Below are positions 3,515 through 62,882 of a DNA stretch of 64,000 nt, one piece after another. Numbering within the stretch: the first letter of the stretch is position 1; every line of letters starts with the position of its first letter. This DNA comes from a virus. The DNA lies in the IMG/VR virus record IMGVR_UViG_3300047494_000229, positions 1 to 64,000 of that record; one strand, 5' to 3'. A program made the translations under genes and the position numbers. The notes under the pieces are model-generated. The model had not been told where the DNA came from and ran no database searches. It saw only the letters and a list, made by a program, of their open reading frames with translations.

Positions 3515-6500
3515 ATGGCAGCAATTTCGCCTCTGACGCTGATTTTTCAAGCGGTCGATCAGGCATCGCCAGTAGTCAAAAATATAATCGCTGGACTCAA
3601 AGAGAATGTCGGCGTAGTCGGTGCTTTGAGTCTTGCGTACAACGAAACTCAGCAGGCGATCGCCTCATTCGCTGCCCAAGGTCAAAAAGCTTACGATCTA
3701 TTGATTGGTCAAAATGTCGAATTACAAGGGCAGTTATTGGCTACCCAAGCATCTCTAGTAGCCACTAATAAGGTAATCTCGGAAGGTTTCGAGGTTAAAG
3801 ACCCGACTAGGGCAATTCAGACATTAACTGAACCTGTAAATCAGGCGATCGCTGACTTGAGAAAAGGTTCCTTTGATTTAGTCGGTGTCACATCGAACGA
3901 TTTAATTCCACTATTTCAATCAGTAGCCAACGAAAGCTCGAAAATTGGAGCAAATCTAGAGCAATCTGCTCAGTTAGCTCTAGGATTTGGGGCAGCTACT
4001 CAGACCCTAAAAATCCCACTCCAGCAAACAAGCAATGAGCTAAAACTGATATTAGAGGGGCAAGTTTCCAGTGAAAATAGGTTAGCAACTGCCTTAAATT
4101 TGAATAACGAAACAGTTAATCGATGGAAATCTCAAAATATATTTGTTGAGGAACTGAATAAAAAACTGGCAGTATTTCGAGCCGGTAATGCTCTCGCTGC
4201 CCAAACAATTGATGGGGTTACAGCAAATATCAAAGAATTATTTTTAGAGTTTGGCAGGGTTGCGGGTGTGCCTTTGCTACAACCAGCTGTCACTCAATTA
4301 AATACTTTATATGAATTTATTAAAAACAATAAAGATGCTATTCAAGAGATCACGGTTTCTGTTGTCAATTTCTTTTTGGAGCTAGCTACAAAGGCAGGAT
4401 CGGTGTTAACAACCCTACAGCCAGTATTTCAAACTTTATCTGAGGCTGGATTTAGATTACTTGCAGCAGAAGGAGATGCAGCCGCCGACGCATTAACTTT
4501 GGTAGTGGATATAATTGTTAACTTAGTAACGGTGGCGACACCTTTATTGCAGGTATTGGCGAATATTGTCGATGCTTTAACAAAAATAGTTGATACCCCT
4601 TTTGGCAGAATATTACTTGAGACGATCGCTACCATAATTTTATTAAATAACGCTTTTACTGCGGCAACAGTAATTGTTAGTTTATTTACTGCGGCACTAG
4701 CTGCAAGTGGTGGTGGTGTAGTGGGATTTGGAACTGCATTGGTTGCAACATTCCCCATACTGGAAATATTCCCTGTAGCGATAACTGCTGGTACTACTGC
4801 ATTGACTGCGTTTACAGCATCGGCGGCGGCAGCAGGTGGTGGTGTAGCTGGTTTTGCTGCGGCAGCAGCGATCGCAGTTCTACCACTTGCAGCACTAGCA
4901 GCAGCCGTCGGGTTAGCTTTTACTGTCCGCGAAACCAAGCGGTTAGAGGAAGCAAACGACGCGCTCGACGAATTTAGCACTCAGGCGCAAGACTCAGGCG
5001 ATCGCGCCGTGGCTTTAGCATCAAAACTTAAGGCTCTCAACGATGCCGAACGTGATAATGGTAAACTGACCCAAGAGCAGGCAAAGCAACTCAAAACTTT
5101 ACAGATAGGTGCGGCTGGGCAATTAGAGGGATTAAAATCACAGTTGGCAGCTATTAAAGAATTAGTTCCCGCCAACGAAGACCAGAAAAATGCTCAAGCG
5201 GCACTTATTAAACAAACTGAAACTAGTATTAGTTTGTTACAAAAACAATCAGGTGCGGCCAGGCTTTTGTCTAAGGATTTACCCCAATTAGGGAATGATT
5301 ATGAGCAGCTGAGTAGAAAAGTTAGTAATGCCCTAGCTCAATTCAATAAACCAGCCAGCGCTGACCAGTTCAAAGCTTCAAGCAAAGAAATTGTCGATCT
5401 CAGTCAGAAACAATTTGAGATTGGACAGCTTACCGCAGAGCAGGTGATCGCCCAACTCAATCAAGTCCGAAATGACACACGCGTAGAATTTGAATTAAGG
5501 CGATCAGCAGCTGATGCCATCACCAAGATTCGCCAAGGTGAAACCGACAAACAAGTAAAAATCAGTGAGGAGCAACAGCAGAAAATCCAAGGGTTAATCG
5601 CCTCCGAGGGAATCTCCCAAGCGGAAGGGCAGAGGCAAATTACCCAAGCGAAATTCAAAGAGCTAAACCTACAATTGGATGCTGTCAGAGCTGCGATCGC
5701 CGCCGAAAATGCCTTGAGAAAATCCCAAGTAGATACCCAAGTAGCAGGAATTGACGCACAGATAGCAGAGGCGCAAAAACGCCTAGCAGAAGCACAAGGC
5801 AAAGGGGATAAGGGAGGAGCCAGAATTGCAAATGAAGATATTACTAGGCTTGAATCCCAGAAGGCAGCAGCCCAAGCATCCCTTGGGATTGATAGTGATC
5901 GCCTCTCCCAGTTAAAATCTCAACAACAGAAATTCTCCACTGAAATTGCTCAAACCGAGGGGCAAGAACGGCAACGAGTTAGGCAAGAACGGTTAAAAGA
6001 CTTTGATGAACAACAGCAAATATTAGATTCTCAAAACGCTCAAAGGTTAATTACTCAAGAGCAATTTAACGATCGCTCCCTTCAAATTGCCCAAGGTAAA
6101 GCGAAAACTGAACTCGCCCAACTGGAGGAACAGCGCGGTAAATTATCGGCTAATGATAAGGAGGGACAGGAGGCGATCGCCGCCAAGGAAGCGCAGGTCC
6201 GTCAAAAGTTGGCAGAGTCCACAGAGAAATTTGAAGCAGATAAATCCAAAATCAGGATCGCAGCTGTTGATACTGAGCAGAAACAATTGGCGGATAAATT
6301 AGCTGAAGGGGAAGTAACTCAGCAACAGTTTAACCAACAGTCCTTGGCATTGACCCAAAAGCGATTACAAGCTGAACTTGATGAGGTGCAACGTCAACGG
6401 GCCCGACTTAAGGCGGGGGATACCCAAAGGGCGGATGAACTCAATGCCCAAGAGGCAGATATTAGGAAGCGCTCGGTAGATGCGATCGCCCAGAATCAAG

Positions 6501-7996: not shown

Positions 7997-8572
7997 ATGA
8001 CCCTACTCTCAGAAATTCAAGCCGCACAGTCCCAGTTGCTACCGCCATTTATTAACAAACAATTGTTAGTGCGATCGCCCCTAACAGTTATCCAATTATT
8101 CAACCCCAATCATTACAATCTCTGGCAATTTGACTCTGGCAACTACGGAGACAGTAGCGATTACGTTTATTTGCGACTATTCCCAGGCTACGAAAGCGCC
8201 AACGAGGTGCAAGGGGACAGAGGATTTAAACCGAGTTTTAACGGGACTGTGGCGCAGCACACAACTACACGCCGAACGTTTACGGCAACAGTTCGACAAC
8301 AAACAGCTTTCATCTTCTACCTCGTTGAGAGGTTGGCGTTAATCGCCAATACTTCCTCTTACACTACTTACACACCCATTAAAATCGTCGATTTTTGTTC
8401 TCCTGAAGCGATTGACGATCCTAATACGGCTGCGTACAACGGCGAACTGGCAACGACTAGATACGGACGGATAGATATTGAAAAACGACCCGCGATCGTT
8501 CGGGGGTTTCAAATGGATTACTGCACTTCTGAGTGGGAGTTCAAGTTTAGTGAGGTCGATTTACGTCCTTAA
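7997..8572 (+). CDS. tail-region protein downstream of the tape measure
   Basis: 191 residues, start ATG at 7997. I do not recognise the family. The protein is mixed alpha/beta, with many aromatic residues (SGNYGDSSDYVYLRLFPGYE) and a segment QHTTTRRTFTATVRQQTAFI. It ends EWEFKFSEVDLRP. Genes directly after a tape measure commonly encode distal tail or baseplate proteins, which is the main hint here. Its stop overlaps by 4 bp the stop of the convergent 117-aa gene on the other strand. Confidence 0.5.
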   Translation: MTLLSEIQAAQSQLLPPFINKQLLVRSPLTVIQLFNPNHYNLWQFDSGNYGDSSDYVYLRLFPGYESANEVQGDRGFKPSFNGTVAQHTTTRRTFTATVRQQTAFIFYLVERLALIANTSSYTTYTPIKIVDFCSPEAIDDPNTAAYNGELATTRYGRIDIEKRPAIVRGFQMDYCTSEWEFKFSEVDLRP

Positions 8573-8922
8573 CTGTTTTCTTGGGCATCACCAGCCGCAA
8601 TTAGAAAAGCATTTAAATCAACTTGATTGCCAATGCTTCCTTCCGACAAAGGAGGAGTTGAACCGCCAGCACTGTAAGTAGTTGCACTACCAGGAAACTT
8701 GTAGAAACCAGAACCAAGAATCATCTCATGCCCAACGATTACGTAGGGAATATTGACGCGAAACAAAGTCTTAGTGACTGTTGTTGTGTCGTCTTTTGTG
8801 ACAGTTAAATTCACGTCAACAATCCATTCTTTTGTTCCCTCGGCGATCGCTGCACTCAAACTCAAAGCTTTGCTGACAGTAGTCGCAGCTTTATCACGGG
8901 CGAATGTATCAGAAATGGTCAT
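8569..8922 (-). CDS. hypothetical protein, 117 aa (tail region)
   Basis: Unrecognised. The sequence alternates Thr/Val/Ile in a beta-rich pattern (WIVDVNLTVTKDDTTTVTKT) followed by YVIVGHEMILGSGFYKFPGS and a Gly/Ser loop. This looks like a small beta-structured virion protein. It starts at an ATG with no upstream neighbour closer than the 8986 gene, on the same strand. A 10-bp hairpin separates the two, so the two genes are probably separate transcription units. Confidence 0.45.
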   Translation of the reverse strand: MTISDTFARDKAATTVSKALSLSAAIAEGTKEWIVDVNLTVTKDDTTTVTKTLFRVNIPYVIVGHEMILGSGFYKFPGSATTYSAGGSTPPLSEGSIGNQVDLNAFLIAAGDAQENS

Positions 8923-14542: not shown

Positions 14543-14785
14543 CTACTTTAATTCTCCAATTAACTCTTTTAAAGCATCCCGATCAATTAAGGCTATTAAT
14601 CCCCTAGTTGCTGAATGCGGCGGATTAGTAAAAAACTCTTTTAAATCTTGACGGTCAATTAAATAACCACGTTGCTTTTTTGGGGTAGCCTTTAACCATT
14701 TGCAACCGATCCATCGGTTAATTGTGCCGCGCTTAATACCTGAAGCCTTTGATAGCTCCTTAATTGTATAATCTCTTTGCTTCAT
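14543..14785 (-). CDS. small HTH protein (excisionase-like)
   Basis: 80 residues. Residues 5-50 (YTIKELSKASGIKRGTINRW, then KKQRGYLIDRQDLKEFF) form an HTH with a short wing, as in excisionases and HTH_17 proteins. The remaining 30 residues are a helical tail. It overlaps the upstream 147-aa gene by 26 bp within the early operon. It may be a recombination directionality factor for the serine recombinase or an operon regulator; nothing in the sequence separates these options. Confidence 0.6.
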   Translation of the reverse strand: MKQRDYTIKELSKASGIKRGTINRWIGCKWLKATPKKQRGYLIDRQDLKEFFTNPPHSATRGLIALIDRDALKELIGELK

Positions 14786-15203
14786 AAGCTTCCTCTAATC
14801 TTTGCCATTTATTGATATCAATTCCATACACTTTTTTAAATTGTTTTGCTACTTTTTGTTGCCACTCTTCAAAAACGCTCGGTTCGGGGGCGGTTAACTT
14901 CCTTGCTGGCTCATCTTCAAATTGATTCACCTCTAATCTGATAATTAGTTCGCCAAATTGAGCGGTGAATATAAATACTTGATTGATGTCTTTTTGAATA
15001 AACTCCGGGTCGTGTAATTTATTCCAGAGTTGAGCGATCGCCCATTGCCGTTCCATATTGCTATTTTTAAGTCTGGGTACTTCCAGTATCATGGTTTCGA
15101 TTAGTTCTTCTTGTTCTCCTGTGTCATCGCTTGGGGGGCGATGTTTTAATTCGCAGTAGAACGATCGCATGGGGACGTTGATTTGTTTAAACATCGTTTT
15201 CAT
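14760..15203 (-). CDS. hypothetical early protein, 147 aa
   Basis: Unrecognised. It is an acidic/basic mixed protein with FYCELKHRPPSDDTGEQEEL near the N-terminus and helical segments (SVFEEWQQKVAKQFKKVYGI) near the C-terminus. The ATG at 15203 overlaps the preceding gene by 17 bp; an ATG three codons later (15194) is an equal alternative. It belongs to the chain of overlapping early genes that includes the replication initiator. Confidence 0.5.
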   Translation of the reverse strand: MKTMFKQINVPMRSFYCELKHRPPSDDTGEQEELIETMILEVPRLKNSNMERQWAIAQLWNKLHDPEFIQKDINQVFIFTAQFGELIIRLEVNQFEDEPARKLTAPEPSVFEEWQQKVAKQFKKVYGIDINKWQRLEEAYEAKRLYN

Positions 15204-23138: not shown

Positions 23139-23726
23139 CTCCCCATGCCACTTGATTACACGCGCATCTACTGTTAACTTAACGGGCCGCCCATCAAATA
23201 ATTTTGCCGTATAAGAATAGTTGCGTAGTTCTGAATCTTTTAGAAGCCTTGAGATATAAGTTTCAAGCTCATCTTCGTACCAATAATCTGACATCTTCTT
23301 GCCCAACCAATCATTTGGTTTAGCGCTGCTGGAATACATAATCCTCTCATTAGAAAATAGCCCTTTGTGGTCAGACATCCTGACAATGCCGCAGGAGCCT
23401 TTGTGGGAAAGGCATTCTTGAATGAGGTTGCTGAATTCGTTCGGAGTAATAATTTTATCCATCAAAATACTTTTTTGCGATTCTTCGATAATATTAAAGC
23501 AAACTTTTGCTTCATCGCCCTTAATCAATATTGTTACCCATTTGACATAAAGAATATCCTCTTTTGAGATGAAGCTCACAGCCTGATGGATGTTTTTTCT
23601 GTTTTGAATTAAAAAGCTCCTATCGTTATCGTGATAACACATAATGAAGATGTGATCTAAGGAAACCAATATCTTGCATCTGTGAAGAATTAAATCGACC
23701 AGTTCGTTGATATTAATAATAGGCAT
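23094..23726 (-). CDS. PAS-like sensory protein
   Basis: 210 residues. The C-terminal ~100 residues (MSDHKGLFSNERIMYSSSAK, then PNDWLGKKMSDYWYEDELET and YSYTAKLFDGRPVKLTVDAR) follow a PAS fold: a strand, a helix with W/Y, and three closing strands ending ARIVKTIE. The N-terminal half is unassigned, with a cysteine-containing hydrophobic strand (DHIFIMCYHDNDRSFLI). PAS proteins of this size are frequent in cyanobacteria. It could sense host state next to the switch genes, or be cargo. No output domain is present. Confidence 0.5.
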   Translation of the reverse strand: MPIININELVDLILHRCKILVSLDHIFIMCYHDNDRSFLIQNRKNIHQAVSFISKEDILYVKWVTILIKGDEAKVCFNIIEESQKSILMDKIITPNEFSNLIQECLSHKGSCGIVRMSDHKGLFSNERIMYSSSAKPNDWLGKKMSDYWYEDELETYISRLLKDSELRNYSYTAKLFDGRPVKLTVDARVIKWHGESARIVKTIEREVLV

Positions 23727-32820: not shown

Positions 32821-32826
32821 TAATTG

Positions 32827-32860
32827 TTGCAGAGTACTAGCAATACTCTGCAATGTTTTT
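32827..32860 (+). terminator. intrinsic terminator before the type IV-B operon
   Basis: TTGCAGAGTA pairs with TACTCTGCAA (10 bp, 7-nt loop) and is followed by TGTTTTT. It is well placed to stop transcription of the 32437 gene, so the csf genes have their own start. Confidence 0.75.
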
Positions 32861-32894
32861 AGTTGAAAGGTAAGAGGAGTAGAGGAGTAAACTT

Positions 32895-33413
32895 GTGCTT
32901 TATAACCATTACGGCATACCCCAAACACGCGATCGCTCCTATGGCGCAGTCGCAGCCCTCACCTATTGGGTTTTTAAGTGCAGGGATAGAAGAAAGTCCC
33001 CAGCGATGGGGATAAAAACCTGGACTTTCTTGGAATCCAGTATCAGAAATTCGGCAGAGATATCTTCTACTTTGGAAGATTATTTACAGCGACTTTGTGA
33101 CAAACTTTTCTCCCAACTCCGTCCAGTGGAGTTGACTAAAATAATTCAGCCACAGCAGCGCATCTTGAGAGTAAATCTTGATGCAACTGAAATCAAAGAA
33201 TTGCCAATTGACCAAAACTTAGTTTTTATGGGCTGGCTAGATTTGGTTGCTGATATTGCGCCTCACGGTTTTAGTGAGTGGGACTTACTTGAGTTATGTC
33301 GCACCAAAGCGGGGATAATTCAAGTGCTTTGTCGCCTCAAATTTGAAGAGGATCGGGCATTAAGGATGGATGAGCCGGAAGATGCTATTGAGGTAGGAGC
33401 AATTGAATTATGA
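32895..33413 (+). CDS. candidate Cas11-like small subunit of the type IV-B complex
   Basis: 172 residues from GTG 32895, or 135 from ATG 33006. The region after 33006 (ESSIRNSAEISSTLEDYLQR, then LCDKLFSQLRPVELTKIIQP, and WDLLELCRTKAGIIQVLCRL) is mostly helical, as expected for Cas11. It sits where a small subunit gene would lie, just before csf2. I recognise no direct sequence signature, so this is placement plus fold guess. The N-terminal extension (NHYGIPQTRDRSYGA) looks like motif VIII of a C5 methyltransferase and may be a fossil or a false start. Confidence 0.4.
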   Translation: MLYNHYGIPQTRDRSYGAVAALTYWVFKCRDRRKSPAMGIKTWTFLESSIRNSAEISSTLEDYLQRLCDKLFSQLRPVELTKIIQPQQRILRVNLDATEIKELPIDQNLVFMGWLDLVADIAPHGFSEWDLLELCRTKAGIIQVLCRLKFEEDRALRMDEPEDAIEVGAIEL

Positions 33414-33571
33414 AGGAAATCAAAGAAGTCGCTAGCGCCCTAATTAATTTGCAAGATCACGGTGGTGATTGTATGTGCAATATCTGCCAAAAAGACCAAC
33501 AAACGATTGAGAAAAATCCTGAGATAGCGGAACAACTTACTGTATTGGTGAACAAAAAAATAAATGTTTGA
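33410..33571 (+). CDS. CxCxxC micro-protein, 53 aa (paralogue of the one at 42.3 kb)
   Basis: Read by hand: ATG 33410, TGA 33571. The product (MKEIKEVASALINLQDHGGD, then CMCNICQKDQQTIEKNPEIA) has a central Cys-Met-Cys-Asn-Ile-Cys. The ATG overlaps the previous stop by 4 bp, and its end overlaps the csf2 start by 8 bp, so it is locked into the operon. A related protein (QDHGADCGCSQC...KNPEVA) is encoded at 42276-42443. The Cys triad could bind zinc or a cluster with partners. It is not part of any described type IV-B complex that I know. Confidence 0.65.
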   Translation: MKEIKEVASALINLQDHGGDCMCNICQKDQQTIEKNPEIAEQLTVLVNKKINV

Positions 33572-34703
33572 AAATTACGACATCTGTGATCGTTGCCGCC
33601 TAACTCTCCACTGCGTTTTCACCCCCCAACTTCCTTTGTCTCACATTGGGGAAGTGTCAGGAAATGTCAGCAACTTAAAAACAGTGAAGCTGCTTGATTT
33701 GGAGGGACAATCAAGACAGTGCTTTGTGTATTCAGGGAACGCCATTCGCAACGGTATTTTGCGGCGGGTTGGTGTAGCAGCTGCCCTTACAGATTTGGAA
33801 TTACAAGTCAACCCCGACGTGCATCAAACCATGTTCGCCGGTGGACGAATTGACGGTAGCACCGCATCAGACATGGAGTTAGACAAGAAAATCCGTACCT
33901 TTTTGCCGTGGCTTTCAGTGCTGGGAACCGCCAAACCCACAAAAGTATTTGGTTCCAAGGATCCTCAAATGGTTGCAGGGCGGATTAATGTCGGCTCTGC
34001 TCATTTAATCTGTTACGAATCAGCTGCTTACATTTACAATCAAATGCCAGGGATGCTGCCTCCAGAGGCGTTAGAGGGAATTGGGAAAATATTGGAGGCG
34101 CAGAAGGCGATCACCCTTGACCCAATGAGTTTACCAACAGCAGAGGCGATCGCCGCTTACAACGAGGTGAAGGCACAGTATCTACCATTGCTCCGTAAAG
34201 TGCTGCGGACATGGACAGAATTTATCACGGTTGACCAAACTACCCGCCGTGACAGTCTTCTTGACCCCAATTTAATTAAGTTTCTTCCCCCTGAAGCACA
34301 GAATTTATTGAAAGGGGAAGGGGGGAAGGAGAAGAAGTCTGACCAAATGATTGCGGGCGATCGTTTGATTATGGCGGGGTCAAAACTTTACTCGCGTTGG
34401 GATTTAAACACGACATCCGTGGAAGAAGGTTGGGTGTATGATGCATTACTGAAGTTCGATGAATCTCCGTACCTTGGAGGGAAGGGGCAAAGGGGTAACG
34501 GGCTTATATCCCTAGATATTTGGTATCAATCGGGTAAAGATTCTGGGATATTGTGCAGCATTGGTAAGCGTGCAGAGTCGGGGTTGTTGAGCGATAGATT
34601 CCAAGAACAGCACGGACGTTACAGAGAGTATATCAATCAATACCGCGAGTTCTTGACGGAAGCAAAAGACTCCAGCGAGTTAAAAAGTTTGTTAGGAAAT
34701 TAA
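33564..34703 (+). CDS. csf2: Csf2 (Cas7-like RAMP, type IV backbone)
   Basis: 379 residues. Cas7/Csf2 features are FTPQLPLSHIGEVSGNVSNL near the N-terminus, then CFVYSGNAIRNGILRRVGVA (the Cas7 'GN..R..LRR' element), MFAGGRIDG, a FLPWLSVLGTAKPTKVFG block and GRINVGSAHLIC. The C-terminal half has SRWDLNTTSVEEGWVYDALL and ends in helices. Cas7 proteins polymerise along the guide RNA and form the spine of the effector complex. The length fits type IV Csf2. csf3 and csf1 follow on the same strand. The family call is made by eye but several motifs agree. Confidence 0.8.
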   Translation: MFENYDICDRCRLTLHCVFTPQLPLSHIGEVSGNVSNLKTVKLLDLEGQSRQCFVYSGNAIRNGILRRVGVAAALTDLELQVNPDVHQTMFAGGRIDGSTASDMELDKKIRTFLPWLSVLGTAKPTKVFGSKDPQMVAGRINVGSAHLICYESAAYIYNQMPGMLPPEALEGIGKILEAQKAITLDPMSLPTAEAIAAYNEVKAQYLPLLRKVLRTWTEFITVDQTTRRDSLLDPNLIKFLPPEAQNLLKGEGGKEKKSDQMIAGDRLIMAGSKLYSRWDLNTTSVEEGWVYDALLKFDESPYLGGKGQRGNGLISLDIWYQSGKDSGILCSIGKRAESGLLSDRFQEQHGRYREYINQYREFLTEAKDSSELKSLLGN

Positions 34704-34791
34704 TTTGAATTGGTACTTGCCAATTCAAAAACACTTTGCTGCTATTGGTACATACCAAAATAAAAGGGCGGTAGAGCCCAAAGGATAAAAA

Positions 34792-34905
34792 ATGAAGCTA
34801 ATCAAAGAAACAGTGAATGGACAAGAGTGGACTAACGGTCACAGGGATTCATGGGTGCAGCTTGCCATCCTGGAGAAAGGCAAGAAGGCGGTTCTCACTG
34901 CATGA
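34792..34905 (+). CDS. small ORF upstream of csf3, 37 aa
   Basis: ATG 34792 to TGA 34905, read by hand: MKLIKETVNGQEWTNGHRDS, then WVQLAILEKGKKAVLTA. Its stop overlaps the csf3 start (ATGA), so it may serve as a translational coupler. It is too short to assign; coding status is uncertain. Confidence 0.35.
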   Translation: MKLIKETVNGQEWTNGHRDSWVQLAILEKGKKAVLTA

Positions 34906-35624
34906 AACCATTGAAAATAACTGCCGTAATGGGAAGTGCGATCGCCTGCTACGACTCCTATTCTCCAAGTTTAGATTCGCTCCTTGAGTGGCTAATACTG
35001 GATAAATTAAACCTCACTTCTCCCAATCCCACACCGGAACAAGTAGAAGCGACGCGCCCCATAGTTGACCGAGAGATGCCATTAGCCAAAGGCGAAGTTA
35101 TGGGTGAATGGTATTGGCAGGTTTCTTCACCCTGCTACCGCATTGTGAGCGAATATACAGATAGATACCGCAAGCGCTGGCAGCCAGGAATTGACAGTCC
35201 TCCTCCAGCGTGGGGAAAACGTAAGGCTAAATGGTCAACTTCTGAAGGGGCAGAGAAGAATTACGATCTGCCTTTATATTGTCGTAATACTCCGGCAATT
35301 AATTGGTATGCGGTGGGGGATAGGGAGGCGATCGCCCAACTCCTACAAAACTGTACCCATATTGGCAAGAAGCGATCTTATGGCAATGGACAGGTTTTGC
35401 GATGGCAAGTTGAACCAATAAAAGAAGACTGGCATCTGTGGCGTGATGATAAACTTATGCGTCCTATGCCATACAGGTTGTTATATTCAGATCCGCGAAT
35501 TTTGCAAAATGAACCTGTAATGATGAATTGGGGATGGCGTCCGCCTGCGTGGTTGCCTAGCAATAAAGAAGTGTGTGTAATGCCAAAGGGGAGTGTATGC
35601 CACTTAACTACGGCACAGGTTTGA
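34902..35624 (+). CDS. csf3: Csf3 (Cas5-like, type IV)
   Basis: 240 residues from ATG 34902; an upstream in-frame start overlaps the 37-aa ORF. The sequence has the Csf3 layout: MKPLKITAVMGSAIACYDSY, DKLNLTSP, a central EWYWQVSSPCYRIVSEYTDR, and the glycine-rich CTHIGKKRSYGNGQVLRWQV that matches the Csf3/Cas5 'GK.R..GYG.V..W' element, followed by RPMPYRLLY. In type IV complexes Csf3 caps the 5' handle of the guide. It overlaps the cysH-like gene by 28 bp and follows csf2 in the order usual for type IV operons. Confidence 0.8.
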   Translation: MKPLKITAVMGSAIACYDSYSPSLDSLLEWLILDKLNLTSPNPTPEQVEATRPIVDREMPLAKGEVMGEWYWQVSSPCYRIVSEYTDRYRKRWQPGIDSPPPAWGKRKAKWSTSEGAEKNYDLPLYCRNTPAINWYAVGDREAIAQLLQNCTHIGKKRSYGNGQVLRWQVEPIKEDWHLWRDDKLMRPMPYRLLYSDPRILQNEPVMMNWGWRPPAWLPSNKEVCVMPKGSVCHLTTAQV

Positions 35625-36346
35625 CCGCGCCTTGGATGAAGAAAAAAGTAGATAGGGCGATCGCTTGTATTGAAGACTGGGTAAGTAAGTGTGATCGCCT
35701 CTGCTATACCTCAACTAGTGGTGGCAAGGATTCCTTGGTAACTGCTCACCTCATCCGCCACGTTTACCCTAGCTGCCCAATGGTGTGGATCAATCAAGGG
35801 CATTTAGCAGAGTGGCCTGACTGCATTGAACTATTGCAGTTTTTAAAAACTCAGGGATGGAACATCGTTGAACTATGTCCAGTGCGCGATTTGTGGCATT
35901 TGTACCTCGACTTGGGCATTCCATTGGAAGGGAAAATGGACACCAAAGCAGATAAAATAATAAACCAACGGTTAATGTACGACCCGTTGGAAGAGTACCA
36001 AGAGCTTAACAATATCAAGGGTTACGCTTGGGGTATTCGTAAAGATGAAAGTCGCAACCGCGCTTTTTACTTGCGGAAGTGGGGAGAATTACACCAACTG
36101 AAAAACGGACTGTGGTGTTGTTCGCCTGTGGCATTTTGGACGGTACAAGATATCTGGCTATATATTGACCAGCAGAAATTGCCTTATCCTGCCATGTATG
36201 ACCGCGATCGCCTCACCATCCGCAACGGGCCACCCATTGGTACAACCGGGGTAAACTGGGGGCGGTTGGCGGAACTCAGAAAACACCACCCTGATTTGTG
36301 GCAGCAGTTTGTAGAGAAATTTCCAGAGGTGCGAGATTATGGCTGA
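35597..36346 (+). CDS. CysH-like PP-loop protein of type IV-B operons
   Basis: 249 residues from ATG 35597, with GGGGAG just upstream; GTG 35573 is possible. The PP-loop CYTSTSGGKDSLVTAHLIRH is intact. Further family marks are PMVWINQGHLAEWPDC, ELCPVRDLWHLYLDLGIPLE, YAWGIRKDESRNRAFYL and WCCSPVAFWTVQDIWLYI. The C-terminal ECG(L/I)H reductase motif of true PAPS reductases is missing, so it is an ATP-dependent PP-loop (DndC-like) enzyme rather than a sulfur reductase. A CysH-like gene is the hallmark of subtype IV-B, where its role is unclear. It overlaps csf1 by 8 bp. Confidence 0.85.
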   Translation: MPLNYGTGLTAPWMKKKVDRAIACIEDWVSKCDRLCYTSTSGGKDSLVTAHLIRHVYPSCPMVWINQGHLAEWPDCIELLQFLKTQGWNIVELCPVRDLWHLYLDLGIPLEGKMDTKADKIINQRLMYDPLEEYQELNNIKGYAWGIRKDESRNRAFYLRKWGELHQLKNGLWCCSPVAFWTVQDIWLYIDQQKLPYPAMYDRDRLTIRNGPPIGTTGVNWGRLAELRKHHPDLWQQFVEKFPEVRDYG

Positions 36347-36995
36347 TTTGTGTTACCTCTGCGGAAAACCTGCAACCAAACCACTAGAACTCAAGGATAG
36401 TTTCACCAGCCATTCTCAATGCCGCATCCCCACATCAAATAAGATGTGCGATCGGTGTCACTCAACAATTGCCGGCGACCAAAAACAACTCTGGTACTGG
36501 AACGAGGGTAAAAATAAGTGGAGCAAATTGTGGGGGCGATCGCTCTCCCGAATTTATCAAGGCGATAAACTACTCGCTCCCGTGATTGAAGGGGAAAAGG
36601 AAGGTTTGCCAATAGTCAAAAACCTGCTTACCCGTGTTGAACTTCGCGGTTTTTTACTTAATCCCCCACAACCGCCATTTACTATAGCGATCGCCGAGTC
36701 AGGGCAGAAGCATATTCTGCCGTGGGCACAAGAGGCGTTAAACCGTGTCATTTTCCCAGTACAATTCGAGCTTGATACTGTGTATATAGTTTACGCCCAA
36801 TTTACTGTGCTACTGGGCTTTTATGAGCAGATGATGACGCTGGGATTTTCAAAAACTGAGATTGACACTGGGGATTATCGGAGCGACAGATTGATGCAAA
36901 ATCTAGAAATTTGGGAGCCACTGGAAGAGGTGATCGCCCCGATGCGTGGAACGAGATTGTTACAGTTAATTTCTTTTGTGGGACAAATTCAGTGA
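36339..36995 (+). CDS. csf1: Csf1 (type IV large subunit, zinc-finger type)
   Basis: 218 residues. An N-terminal zinc site (DLCYLCGKPATKPL, then KMCDRCHSTIAGD) with CxxC...CxxC is followed by helices and ISFVGQIQ at the end. The Cys-rich opening plus the ~220-residue size fits Csf1, the Cas8-like subunit expected to contact target DNA or the guide 5' end. The overlap with the cysH-like gene and the place after csf2-csf3 support the call. Csf1 families diverge strongly, so confidence is lower than for csf2 and csf3. Confidence 0.65.
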   Translation: MADLCYLCGKPATKPLELKDSFTSHSQCRIPTSNKMCDRCHSTIAGDQKQLWYWNEGKNKWSKLWGRSLSRIYQGDKLLAPVIEGEKEGLPIVKNLLTRVELRGFLLNPPQPPFTIAIAESGQKHILPWAQEALNRVIFPVQFELDTVYIVYAQFTVLLGFYEQMMTLGFSKTEIDTGDYRSDRLMQNLEIWEPLEEVIAPMRGTRLLQLISFVGQIQ

Positions 36996-37801
36996 AACCC
37001 TACAAACTGCCTAAAGGTTATTTGAATTTCCAACAATTCAATAACCACTTGAGTCAAATACAATTAGTTAAACCCAAACCTATTAATGTTTTGGGAATGC
37101 CAGAGGTAGCAAATAATCTATCCCATATCTATAGTAAATGGTCACAGGGATACCCTTTATACTGCGTCAGACCTAATCTACTAGAAGAGATGTTAGAAAC
37201 CGATGTTGGCGAAAATCTAGCACTATTTACTGACATCAATTTAGCAATCCCATCTTATGTTTTGTTTTTACCTCAATATCAGATTAAATCCCCTTGCGGT
37301 AAGGGTTGTATTGATTATCTGGTTATCAATCATGAAGAGTTAGATTTGCCAGAACATAAACACGCGATCGCTTGGGGCGGTGTTGATTCCAATGATGGAT
37401 TGTTCTTAGCGTACAAGCGAATTCGCAGGGATGGAACCTTACAGCGATCGCGCTTTGGGACTGAGGATAAAGAACAACAAGAACAGTCTTTATTACTCAG
37501 AAATATAGCATTGCAATCAGTTCTTCTGCTGCAATACTATCCAGAAATTGAAGAGCAAATTACCATTGTGCCTGGGAAAGAAAAGGGATTTGGTGGGAAT
37601 AAATTAGAATCCCCTTTTCTACTCCCTCGCTGGTTAGGGAAAGAATCAAAATCGTCGCCAAGCTCAAGCACCGGTAAAAGTGGTGCATCTAAAGCTACGC
37701 ATTTTCGGCGGGGGCACTGGAGGGCGCAGCCATGCGGAAAAGGTAGGGCAGAAACAAAAATAACCTGGGTACGCCCTGCATGGGTAGCTGGCAACAATTA
37801 G
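36992..37801 (+). CDS. type IV operon-associated protein with HxRRGHxR tail
   Basis: 269 residues from GTG 36992, which overlaps the csf1 stop by 4 bp. The N-terminal ~210 residues are unassigned alpha/beta (YPLYCVRPNLLEEMLETDVG, then INLAIPSYVLFLPQYQIKSP and YLVINHEELDLPEHKHAIAW). The C-terminus SKATHFRRGHWRAQPCGKGR, then ITWVRPAWVAG, is a motif I recall from assorted phage and plasmid proteins, also from AcrVA2-like anti-CRISPR relatives. A role with the effector complex is inferred only from the operon. A hairpin follows the stop. Confidence 0.5.
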   Translation: MKPYKLPKGYLNFQQFNNHLSQIQLVKPKPINVLGMPEVANNLSHIYSKWSQGYPLYCVRPNLLEEMLETDVGENLALFTDINLAIPSYVLFLPQYQIKSPCGKGCIDYLVINHEELDLPEHKHAIAWGGVDSNDGLFLAYKRIRRDGTLQRSRFGTEDKEQQEQSLLLRNIALQSVLLLQYYPEIEEQITIVPGKEKGFGGNKLESPFLLPRWLGKESKSSPSSSTGKSGASKATHFRRGHWRAQPCGKGRAETKITWVRPAWVAGNN

Positions 37802-40880: not shown

Positions 40881-41777
40881 CTACATTCTTCTTTGAATTG
40901 CGGCATTAATCACTTCTTGACTACTAGAAGAACTGGTGATGTTTGCCAAATTCAGGAATAAGTTTACTTTATCCCTAGCCTGCTCAAATGTTAGTCTTGG
41001 CGGATTATTGATCACCAACTTGACTAAATCTGAGTACCAGTATCGGGGCGATCGCAAAGTCAACCCCGCATCAATAACTTTCTCGCGCCACCCATCTTCG
41101 GGCAGGATTTCTTGGTCTTCTTTCCCCAAATACCAATGTTTGCTAACTTGGGGCATCCAAGACCCCATATTCGCATCACAATACCTTAACCCTTTCACAT
41201 CCATGAAATCATATCCCATCGCCTTGATTTCTCTAAGAAACGACAATTCAGAAACCCCAGCAATATAAGGATGGCAGATGGGAAGAGTTAAAACTCCGTA
41301 GTCCTTTGCCAACTGCAAAGTTTTGAGGTGCTGTTTAACCGTAAACCGTTCAATAGGCGGTTCATTTCCAGTGATGCCCAAGACAAGGGCAAAATTGGGA
41401 ATTTTGGCAAGCCTCGACATAATGCGATCACTAATTGTCCATTTGCTGACACAAGTAATGAGCTTGGCGATAGGCGAAACTTTCTCAACCCAATGCCACA
41501 AATACTCATCAAGTACTGGGAAAAATGGATCTGTGATGGCTGTGAATCCAACGATATCCCCAGCCAGGATACCCCACGGAAAACTATAAAAACGTTCTTG
41601 CTCTTGGGGATTGTCCTTAATGAAGGGAGAAACATTAACAAAGCTACAAGCCTTGTTAATGCCCGCAATTGGGTTCTTATTCCACACCTCCCGACGGGTG
41701 TCATGCTCTGTTATAAAGCAATATTTGCAAGCCACGGGGCAAGCAGATTTGCCGACTTCAAAACGGAAGGATTGCAT
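40881..41777 (-). CDS. radical SAM protein (SPL-like)
   Basis: 298 residues. The cluster motif CPVACKYCF (CxxxCxxC) lies at residues ~13-20. The fold continues with WGILAGDIVGFTAITDPFFP (cf. the 'TDPY.P.E' step of SPL-like enzymes), KLITCVSKWTISDRIMSRLA, FALVLGITGNEPPIERFTVK and LPICHPYIAGVSELSFLREI. The C-terminal ~90 residues are unassigned. SPL-like radical SAM enzymes act on nucleic acids or small molecules. It is the last gene of the leftward operon and overlaps the kinase gene by 20 bp. Confidence 0.75.
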   Translation of the reverse strand: MQSFRFEVGKSACPVACKYCFITEHDTRREVWNKNPIAGINKACSFVNVSPFIKDNPQEQERFYSFPWGILAGDIVGFTAITDPFFPVLDEYLWHWVEKVSPIAKLITCVSKWTISDRIMSRLAKIPNFALVLGITGNEPPIERFTVKQHLKTLQLAKDYGVLTLPICHPYIAGVSELSFLREIKAMGYDFMDVKGLRYCDANMGSWMPQVSKHWYLGKEDQEILPEDGWREKVIDAGLTLRSPRYWYSDLVKLVINNPPRLTFEQARDKVNLFLNLANITSSSSSQEVINAAIQRRM

Positions 41778-42279
41778 CTAATATCTCCGAAAATACTGAA
41801 TCTTGATCAAGTTCACCATTGATGGTGATTAATTTGTTTTTTTGTTGCCAAAACTCTAGTAACGGAGGAAGGCGATCGCTCTCTAGCAATAGTCTTTCCG
41901 CGCTACTTAGTTCATCTCCTCTAGCTCGAATTTGACAACGTAATACTGCAATATTTGGGGAAATTTTAAGATAGATAACAAAATCTACCTCTTGAACGAC
42001 TTTGGCTTGATTGATATTGCGAGGAAAGCCATCGATTATCCAAGAATTTTTAGCACATATTGGCTTGGCTATTTCAATGGCGATCGCGTCTGGCAACGGA
42101 AGCCAAGTTTTACTATCGCCCCAATACGAACTAATTCTTTGGCTGAGTTCGGTTTTATTTTGAAATTCCGCTCTCACTAAATCCCCCATACTATAATGGA
42201 GGACTGTATAAAACTCAGATAGATTCTTACCCTGAGTGCTTTTTCCAGCACTGGGAAGACCTAAGAGAACTATCTTCAT
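41758..42279 (-). CDS. adenylate-kinase-like nucleotide kinase
   Basis: 173 residues. P-loop MKIVLLGLPSAGKSTQGKNL; then MGDLVRAEFQNKTEL (the nucleoside monophosphate-binding helix), SWIIDGFPRNINQAKVVQEV (the 'DGFPR' motif of adenylate kinases) and VDFVIYLKIS. The LID domain is short (RARGDELSSAERLLLESDRL). It is most like small adenylate-kinase family enzymes but differs enough that the substrate is open. Its ATG overlaps the stop of the CxCxxC gene (ATGA), so it is translated together with that micro-protein, between two radical-SAM-like genes. Confidence 0.8.
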   Translation of the reverse strand: MKIVLLGLPSAGKSTQGKNLSEFYTVLHYSMGDLVRAEFQNKTELSQRISSYWGDSKTWLPLPDAIAIEIAKPICAKNSWIIDGFPRNINQAKVVQEVDFVIYLKISPNIAVLRCQIRARGDELSSAERLLLESDRLPPLLEFWQQKNKLITINGELDQDSVFSEILDAILPF

Positions 42280-42443
42280 TTGTTTTTTGTAGTTAAACTA
42301 GCAACGGCGCTAGCGACCTCTGGATTTTTTGAAATCGTTTCCTTGTCTCCCTGACATTGACTACATCCGCAATCAGCACCGTGATCTTGCACGTTTGCGA
42401 TCGCTTCACAAACCTGCTTAATTTGATTAACTTCTTTTGACAT
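42276..42443 (-). CDS. CxCxxC micro-protein, 55 aa (paralogue of the one before csf2)
   Basis: Read by hand: ATG 42443, TGA 42276. The product (MSKEVNQIKQVCEAIANVQD, then HGADCGCSQCQGDKETISKN-PEVASAV) aligns without gaps over ~25 residues to the micro-protein at 33410: QDHG(A/G)DC.C..CQ.D..TI.KNPE(V/I)A. The start overlaps the end of the displaced radical-SAM-like gene by 17 bp, and the stop overlaps the kinase start by 4 bp. The Cys triad and the tight coupling suggest a metal-binding partner of the enzymes around it. Confidence 0.7.
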   Translation of the reverse strand: MSKEVNQIKQVCEAIANVQDHGADCGCSQCQGDKETISKNPEVASAVASLTTKNK

Positions 42444-49388: not shown

Positions 49389-49511
49389 ATGTCCCCAAGC
49401 GATCGCCTGCGCCTCATCCAAATCCAAGAAAAATTCGCCAAACTCGGATGGCTGCCACGCGAAGACGTAATATGGTTGATAGAGATTTTGGAGCAACTAT
49501 GCAGAACTTGA
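49389..49511 (+). CDS. small protein, 40 aa
   Basis: Read by hand: ATG 49389 to TGA 49511, MSPSDRLRLIQIQEKFAKLG, then WLPREDVIWLIEILEQLCRT. Two amphipathic helices with good coding character. Its stop abuts the first palindrome of repeat copy 4. Confidence 0.45.
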   Translation: MSPSDRLRLIQIQEKFAKLGWLPREDVIWLIEILEQLCRT

Positions 49512-49573
49512 GGAACAATTGTTCCTGAAAAACGACTGAAAGCCTTATTATTGCGTTAAGAACAATTGTTCTT
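49511..49573. repeat. dispersed double-palindrome repeat, copy 4
   Basis: GGAACAATTGTTCC at 49512-49525 and GAACAATTGTTC at 49560-49571, with a spacer like copy 1 (ACTGAAAGCCTTATTATTGC). The centre-to-centre distance is 48 bp, as in copies 1 and 3. Confidence 0.85.
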
Positions 49574-49614
49574 TAGGGGCGATCGCTCAGGACGGGCCGC
49601 GCCAACGCCAACTC

Positions 49615-49634
49615 CAGGAACAATTGTTCCTGAA
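49615..49634. repeat. solo palindrome next to copy 4
   Basis: CAGGAACAATTGTTCCTG lies 45 bp after copy 4 and lacks the second palindrome. The next ~190 bp up to 49826 contain nothing else that I can name. Confidence 0.75.
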
Positions 49635-62256: not shown

Positions 62257-62882
62257 AAATTAAACCCTGCCTTTTTTAATTGCTCAAATCCTTGTTGTTC
62301 TTCAAACATTTTTAAATCATGCTCACGCTGCAATTCTTCTAGAGCTTCTTTTCCACGCAAGCGATCGCCTACCTGTTTAGCTAATGCTGCTAATTGCGAG
62401 GGCGATCGCTCCTTACATAACCACTCAATTTGCCCAGGATTGGGCAGTAGTAGTAGTTCAGCCAACACATCAATCTCAAATTCCCCCGAAGTAATCCTAA
62501 CTTCCTTTCTTCCACTTCCGACTTCCGACTTCTCATAGTCATACCCCATCAGTAATTCCAGTCCTGAAATCCAAAATTCCCCTCGACTTTCAGCAGCCAC
62601 AAAGAAACTATGGCGAGATGCGGGAGATAGAGATGATGGATCGAAGTTTGGTAAGAGGCGTTCGCCCTTGGCGTGCTGGAGGCAATCGCCTATCTTCTGG
62701 TAATACTTTGCAAAGTTCTCAAACAGTAAGCTGTCGGTTTCTACAAGGTGATGGTGCGGGAGTGATCGCACTCGATTCAGGAGTTCTAGGTGATACGCAC
62801 GGGCGATCGGTGCTAATTCCAAGCTGGGTGCGCCAACCAAGAAAAAGTCATCATGAGTATCTAATCGCCAAAAATTTAGCAC
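62253..62882 (-). CDS. hypothetical protein after the tube gene, 209 aa
   Basis: Unrecognised. The chain is helical and Leu/Glu-rich: YHLELLNRVRSLPHHHLVET, then DCLQHAKGERLLPNFDPSSL and FEIDVLAELLLLPNPGQIEW, and a coiled-coil end (ALEELQREHDLKMFEEQQGF). In many tailed phages a helical gene following the tube gene is the tail assembly chaperone; this one has the place and roughly the size, but no frameshift site is seen. It overlaps the tube gene by 7 bp. Confidence 0.45.
   Translation of the reverse strand: MLNFWRLDTHDDFFLVGAPSLELAPIARAYHLELLNRVRSLPHHHLVETDSLLFENFAKYYQKIGDCLQHAKGERLLPNFDPSSLSPASRHSFFVAAESRGEFWISGLELLMGYDYEKSEVGSGRKEVRITSGEFEIDVLAELLLLPNPGQIEWLCKERSPSQLAALAKQVGDRLRGKEALEELQREHDLKMFEEQQGFEQLKKAGFNL

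Follow-up and report, generated by a model that had tools for sequence, protein, structure and literature searches.

A type IV-B CRISPR-Cas operon on a cyanophage genome fragment: Cas6 and an exchangeable CysH position in its relatives

What might a CRISPR-Cas effector operon do for a phage in whose record neither an array nor adaptation genes are found? The locus that raises this question lies in the IMG/VR virus record IMGVR_UViG_3300047494_000229 (here G000), a linear record of 74,272 bp, the first 64,000 nucleotides of which are referred to as the window. Positions 32895-36995 form a complete type IV-B effector operon of five full-length genes read in the same direction, cas11, csf2, csf3, a cysH-like gene, and csf1, and its assignment to type IV-B and to a cyanophage is close to certain. 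Of three questions on type IV-B, its function, the source of its guides, and the role of its CysH protein, this lineage makes two testable, as relatives of the operon carry Cas6 and exchange the enzyme encoded between csf3 and csf1. We give about an even chance to the reading that the operon encodes an RNA-guided, nuclease-free type IV-B ribonucleoprotein (RNP) with CysH as its chemical effector.

The operon and the phage that carries it

The operon and its borders comprise the following features, with profile matches in brackets (ORF, open reading frame).

32825-32862, plus strand: intrinsic terminator 5' of the operon (12-bp stem at 32825-32855, then TTTTTAG)
32895-33413, plus strand: cas11, the type IV small subunit (PADLOC typeIV_Cas11, 2.8e-6; orthologues 48-82% identical adjoin csf2 in relatives)
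33410-33571, plus strand: ORF of 53 amino acids, ATGA-coupled to cas11, not conserved in relatives (paralogous stretch at 42285-42431)
33564-34703, plus strand: csf2/cas7, Cas7-like backbone (PADLOC typeIV_Cas7, 1.4e-29)
34905-35624, plus strand: csf3/cas5, Cas5-like (PADLOC typeIV_Cas5, 2e-47; NCBIfam TIGR03116, 5.8e-17)
35606-36346, plus strand: CysH-like PP-loop protein of the CysH1 type (PF01507, 1.2e-14; an alternative start at 35573, giving 257 amino acids, is possible)
36339-36995, plus strand: csf1, Cas8-like (PADLOC typeIV_Cas8, 2.8e-24; TIGR03114, 2.7e-8)
36992-37801, plus strand: phage ORF at the operon end (homologue in L081, a 138-kb phage without csf genes)

An earlier note on this DNA had named csf2, csf3, a CysH-like gene, and csf1, and the PADLOC, NCBIfam, and PF01507 profiles bear out all four identities with significant matches. 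The span that it gave, 32895-37801, stands in its core and shifts at both edges: the left-hand ORF is cas11, which had been overlooked, while the right-hand ORF, starting on the csf1 stop, is judged to be a phage gene outside the system because its homologue occurs in another phage without any csf genes. The tight overlap that it described is seen for csf3-cysH-csf1 and not upstream, where gaps of 150 bp (cas11-csf2) and 201 bp (csf2-csf3) hold small, non-conserved ORFs; a Cas6 remnant was sought in the 201-bp gap and none was found. The operon does begin after an intrinsic terminator, as had been stated. NCBIfam TIGR03115, TIGR03116, and TIGR03114 match the window csf genes under their curated cut-offs, which are tuned on other type IV lineages, and the window Csf proteins are therefore distant members.

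Foldseek analysis of the Csf2 model, of moderate quality (predicted local distance difference test, pLDDT, 62.5), reports hits with the type IV Csf2 8rc2 (4.6e-10) and the IV-B complex 7jhy (1.1e-3); the plasmid row was left out of the alignment used for structure prediction. The Csf2 family profile matches the 7jhy Csf2 (7.5e-5) and the Csf3 family profile a solved IV-A Csf3 (3.6e-8), while the Cas11 model (pLDDT 47.5) is too poor to judge its fold and returned no useful structural match. Profiles, Foldseek matches, and gene set agree on subtype IV-B, as the earlier note had proposed, and neither of the outcomes that it had named as refuting, profiles without significant match or models without Cas7 and Cas5 folds, occurred. 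In the alignment, csf1 exhibits an invariant Cys4 motif (C5, C8, C37, and C40 in the window protein). The window CysH keeps the PP-loop SGGKDS and the GIRxxES motif; SxGKDS and GxRxxE are conserved among the aligned forms, one G012 copy reading SWGTDS, and none of the 10 sequences has the C-terminal catalytic Cys motif. The same combination has been published for CasCysH (PMC8175902).

The 144 HIP1 octamers of the record, where 0.5 are expected, make a cyanobacterial host very probable, and the capsid-tail module of the Nodularia phage kac65v162 (Ravarandavirus, 147 kb) has colinear counterparts in the ORFs 50991-69111 (24-58% identity), both in line with the cyanobacterial phage context suggested before. 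G000 covers part of the genome of a siphophage of cyanobacteria, a relative of Ravarandavirus (isolates of 139-147 kb), and this colinearity indicates that it probably represents about half of a complete genome of ~140 kb. Cas1, Cas2, a DinG-type helicase domain (PF13307), Cas6 (Cmx6 TIGR02807; Pfam PF10040), and C2c8 all returned no match in the full 74,272 bp. No array emerged in the window from scans for exact and approximate repeats, a tandem-repeat search, or hairpin-cluster scans, and the array-like repeat chain of the record scores 0, equal to shuffles, as compared with 174-503 for array-bearing relatives. The absence of cas1, cas2, cas6, dinG, and an array claimed earlier thus extends to the entire record; the term array-less does not extend to the phage, since the record is a fragment and an array may lie in the missing part.

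Relatives, Cas6, and the exchangeable position

Scans with Csf3, Csf2, and Csf1 report the same core in more than 30 virus records, in the Gloeobacter morelensis plasmid pGMOR1 (NZ_CP063846.1), and in one contig of a Spirulinaceae metagenome-assembled genome. A first scan of genome contigs with Csf3 gave no match, Csf2 had none among 50,697 phage records, and its tblastn search against plasmids at 1e-5 returned nothing outside Gloeobacter and Rhodovastum. The usual order is cas11-csf2-csf3-slot-csf1, rearranged or inverted in L108-L112. Every operon gene is under purifying selection in pairs of relatives (omega 0.02-0.18), as is cas6 (omega 0.02-0.17). Record G012 carries a tandemly duplicated mosaic csf operon, and at L039 1390-8605 the operon is tandemly duplicated and recombined, with a truncated csf2, three csf3, both CysH types, and two csf1.

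Thirteen relatives have a Cas6 of the Cmx6 type (TIGR02807, about 1e-36 to 1e-48) within the operon or next to it: G001-G005, where it overlaps csf3, G013, pGMOR1, the five more distant virus records L108-L112, and L049, in which it is a fragment only. IV-B has been described as devoid of Cas6 (PMC8175902, PMC7937560), which is true of the window operon and not of the lineage as a whole. The IV-B label given by the earlier note fits the window operon, whereas its lineage departs from IV-B as described, both in the Cas6 of many relatives and in an exchangeable CysH position. An unrooted tree of 12 rows, made without the later-found loci, has two cas6 changes; Rhodococcus/Rhodovastum gave no usable root, with branches as long as 10, so that both gain and loss of cas6 are compatible with it.

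The slot between csf3 and csf1 is exchangeable. CysH1, the window type, occupies it in most operons, while pGMOR1, G013, L105, and L112 encode a different CysH (about 25-31% identical to that of the window where measured) and a cupin. In L097 and L108 it holds CysH2 and a Coq4-like protein (the Coq4 Pfam match is weak in L097, 0.02, and 2.5e-5 in L108), and in L049 and one G012 copy CysH2 alone. The exchange is clean between L097 and L099, which share 94-95% DNA identity up to the csf3 end and again from the csf1 start, with unrelated DNA between: their four core proteins are 95-98% identical in amino acids, whereas the CysH proteins, CysH1 in L099 and CysH2 (followed by the Coq4-like protein) in L097, are 32% identical. 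In L106, an N6/N4 DNA methylase (8185-8799; PF01555, 4.3e-8) begins inside the csf3 end and replaces CysH in an otherwise standard csf operon, and no PF01507 protein is found anywhere in that record. Beside this subject, the pGMOR1 plasmid encodes 3' of csf1 a cytosine methyltransferase, a second protein resembling 3'-phosphoadenosine-5'-phosphosulfate (PAPS) reductase, and another DNA methyltransferase in a row (L008 15091-18625), a possible DNA-modification cassette. The lineage appears to be a variant of IV-B with three undescribed features, namely Cas6, the exchangeable CysH position, and a co-carried C2c8 with its array; the literature searched contained no description of it, which does not prove priority.

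A proposed mechanism and its alternatives

In the mechanism that we propose, Csf2 and Cas11 would form filaments on RNA of guide length, capped by Csf3 and Csf1, to yield a class 1 RNP, and the CysH-type PP-loop enzyme would be its chemical effector, using ATP alpha-phosphate chemistry. Having neither nuclease nor helicase, this RNP would bind its target and then silence it or mark it chemically via the CysH module. Guides of the window copy would be supplied in trans, by another array in the phage or by the host, while the Cas6-bearing sister operons could make guides with their own Cas6; the phage would likely benefit in competing against host defence or other mobile elements. Cas6 in the relatives is a reason to think that this RNP lineage uses processed crRNA-like (CRISPR RNA-like) guides, and the sister operons that have one indicate the RNA that should be sought. 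A constant RNP combined with a changing enzyme is the pattern to be expected of a delivered chemical effector, and the DNA methylase that takes the place of CysH in L106 suggests that nucleic acids are modified; natural swaps within nearly identical core genes are ready-made controls for the contribution of the CysH module. Asp42 of the 7jhy Csf2, a residue considered as a candidate for RNase activity like that of Csm3, is paired, in a weak alignment, with Asn37 of the window protein. The Asn is invariant in a nine-sequence alignment and is also present in most of the further loci shown, L105 being different, which speaks weakly against RNA cleavage of the Csm3 type.

A wider formulation, which we put forward tentatively and consider on balance doubtful, would make IV-B an RNA-guided platform that delivers one of several interchangeable modifying enzymes (CysH1, CysH2 with a cupin, CysH2 with a Coq4-like protein, or a DNA methylase), CysH modifying the nucleic acid to which the complex is bound without cleaving it, and the Cas6-bearing cyanophage lineage keeping a guide-making step that other IV-B systems lost.

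Several points weigh against an RNA-guided chemical effector. Within 74 kb, the window copy is accompanied by neither Cas6 nor array, the CysH chemistry is putative, a methylase in the slot is known from one record only (L106), and the slot swaps could be recombination between neighbouring defence genes instead of the exchange of a functional module. The equivalence of Asp42 and Asn37 comes from a weak alignment, and a search for spacer targets of the related arrays in phages and plasmids found none bar one chance-level 30-bp match. To our knowledge, the Mycobacterium complex is the sole IV-B complex that has been purified. It bound heterogeneous RNA, with no enrichment of crRNA (PMC7937560).

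This RNA content, 55-60 nt in length (PMC7937560), would also suit an anti-guide sponge, a role proposed earlier (PMC8175902) that we consider rather improbable here: the RNP would have lost its guide specificity and would coat host crRNAs or other small RNAs to protect the phage, CysH acting either in regulation or in RNA modification. The window record, devoid of Cas6 and array, fits such a role, but many relatives keep a Cas6, under purifying selection where tested, which a sequence-blind sponge would not need, and the DNA methylase in the CysH position would be without obvious use.

Alternatively, the RNP might borrow its crRNAs from co-carried arrays of another CRISPR type, C2c8 (V-U2, Cas12u2) or I-E-like, which we hold to be unlikely. 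An intact C2c8 with an array is present in G007, G008, G010, G011, G016, L097, L099, and L100, several of these C2c8-plus-array phages being without cas6; it starts about 1 kb after csf1 in L099 and L100, and is fragmented in L096. The pGMOR1 plasmid encodes a C2c8-like protein (140572-142858, annotated as a transposase) that apparently lost two of the three RuvC acidic residues and is followed by an array; an Actinomyces plasmid likewise pairs IV-B with an inactivated Cas12b3 and a mini-array (PMC12669027), and G001 combines partial I-E genes, cas6e-cas7e-cas5e, with two leader-bearing arrays. However, the C2c8 arrays adjoin their own effector, the phage records are closely related and so represent few independent events, C2c8 and array are both absent from the window record, and co-expressed I-E crRNAs were not taken up by the Mycobacterium IV-B (PMC7937560). 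We did not assume the C2c8 arrays to be IV-B arrays, a Cas12-like gene adjoining each, and rejected as unproven the G001 arrays as guide source of the type IV operon, the cas6e, cas7e, and cas5e genes lying beside them; the type IV RNP may use the co-carried arrays or do without them.

Very improbably, the operon is a decaying, inactive passenger, as the G017 record of the same phage family (an internal-deletion remnant with cas11 intact and csf2 cut to its first residues, directly followed by the last third of csf1) and the absence of cas6 and array from the window might suggest, for none of the five window genes is truncated and their motifs are conserved, the omega values of relative pairs argue against decay there, and intact operons occur in many records from many samples.

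The arrays and repeats show further traits. Phage C2c8 loci lie at L035 17722-21125, L097 13117-16094, and L099/L100 11632-14531 and beyond, with arrays of 10-20 repeats; tracrRNA-like (trans-activating crRNA-like) anti-repeats flank the L035 array, and spacers differ between close relatives, yet the records tested contain no cas1. The CRISPR-like arrays of G001 (L025; 6063-6440, plus strand, and 14560-15060, minus strand) share the leader TGTGTGCTATAGTGGT.GGCAGGACATTGA and comprise 36-nt UUCG-hairpin repeats that vary between copies, with unique spacers of 27-38 nt; an adjacent ORF of 214 amino acids, without family match, may be a PD-(D/E)xK nuclease. Clusters of CCCAC-N4-GTGGG hairpins with a 36-42-bp period occur in G001 (213-620, with the same leader as the arrays, 4617-4860, 23410-23490, 62440-62690, and 70608-70690), G002 (36844-37240), L005 (2075-2463), L006 (2440-2567), and L007 (3068-3344), and sit about 3 kb 5' of the type IV operon in G002-G005. 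They may be solitary repeats of an anti-CRISPR-like kind, or else belong to some other family of repeats. The irregularly spaced repeats of pGMOR1 (L008 20050-20660) were rejected as CRISPR and read as plasmid iteron-like. Elsewhere in the window, the perfect palindrome GAACAATTGTTC, which resembles a phage-regulator operator, lies in pairs or triplets between genes (2800, 2847, 7912, 7959, and 49511-49634), and an adenylate-kinase-like gene (41758-42279, minus strand; TIGR01351, 1.3e-27) adjoins one for a weakly radical-SAM-like protein (40881-41777).

Comparison with known systems

The window CysH shares the PP-loop and the PAPS-reductase fold family PF01507 with CysH/PAPS reductase and DndC, and differs from them by the missing C-terminal catalytic Cys motif and by its place in a csf operon instead of sulfur assimilation or a dnd operon. 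In type IV-C, a Cas10-like HD large subunit replaces csf1, whereas the window operon has csf1 with its Cys4 motif and no Cas10-like protein. Type IV-A (8rc2, 7xg0) has the Csf2 and Csf3 folds in common with the window, and Cas6 with its sister operons, but possesses DinG and no Cas11, while the window operon includes Cas11 and CysH, and PF13307, the DinG-type helicase domain, is missing from the record. The Fuxivirus IV-B of Bathyarchaeia viruses is likewise virus-borne with CysH, with a mini-array in a IV-B context; it belongs to an archaeal virus, its CysH adjoins csf3 at the other locus end, and the part of its description consulted mentions no Cas6 (PMC10848311). The IV-B systems of Mycobacterium sp. 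JS623 (7jhy) and Rhodococcus jostii RHA1 pRHL2 share csf1, cas11, csf2, csf3, and a CysH-like gene without adaptation genes, and, with the window copy, the lack of Cas6 and array. In pRHL2 the order is csf1-cas11-csf2-csf3 with a divergent cysH, as compared with the single operon ending cysH-csf1 in the window. Both are very distant from the cyanophage lineage, and the relatives of the window differ from them by carrying Cas6 and by swapping the CysH position.

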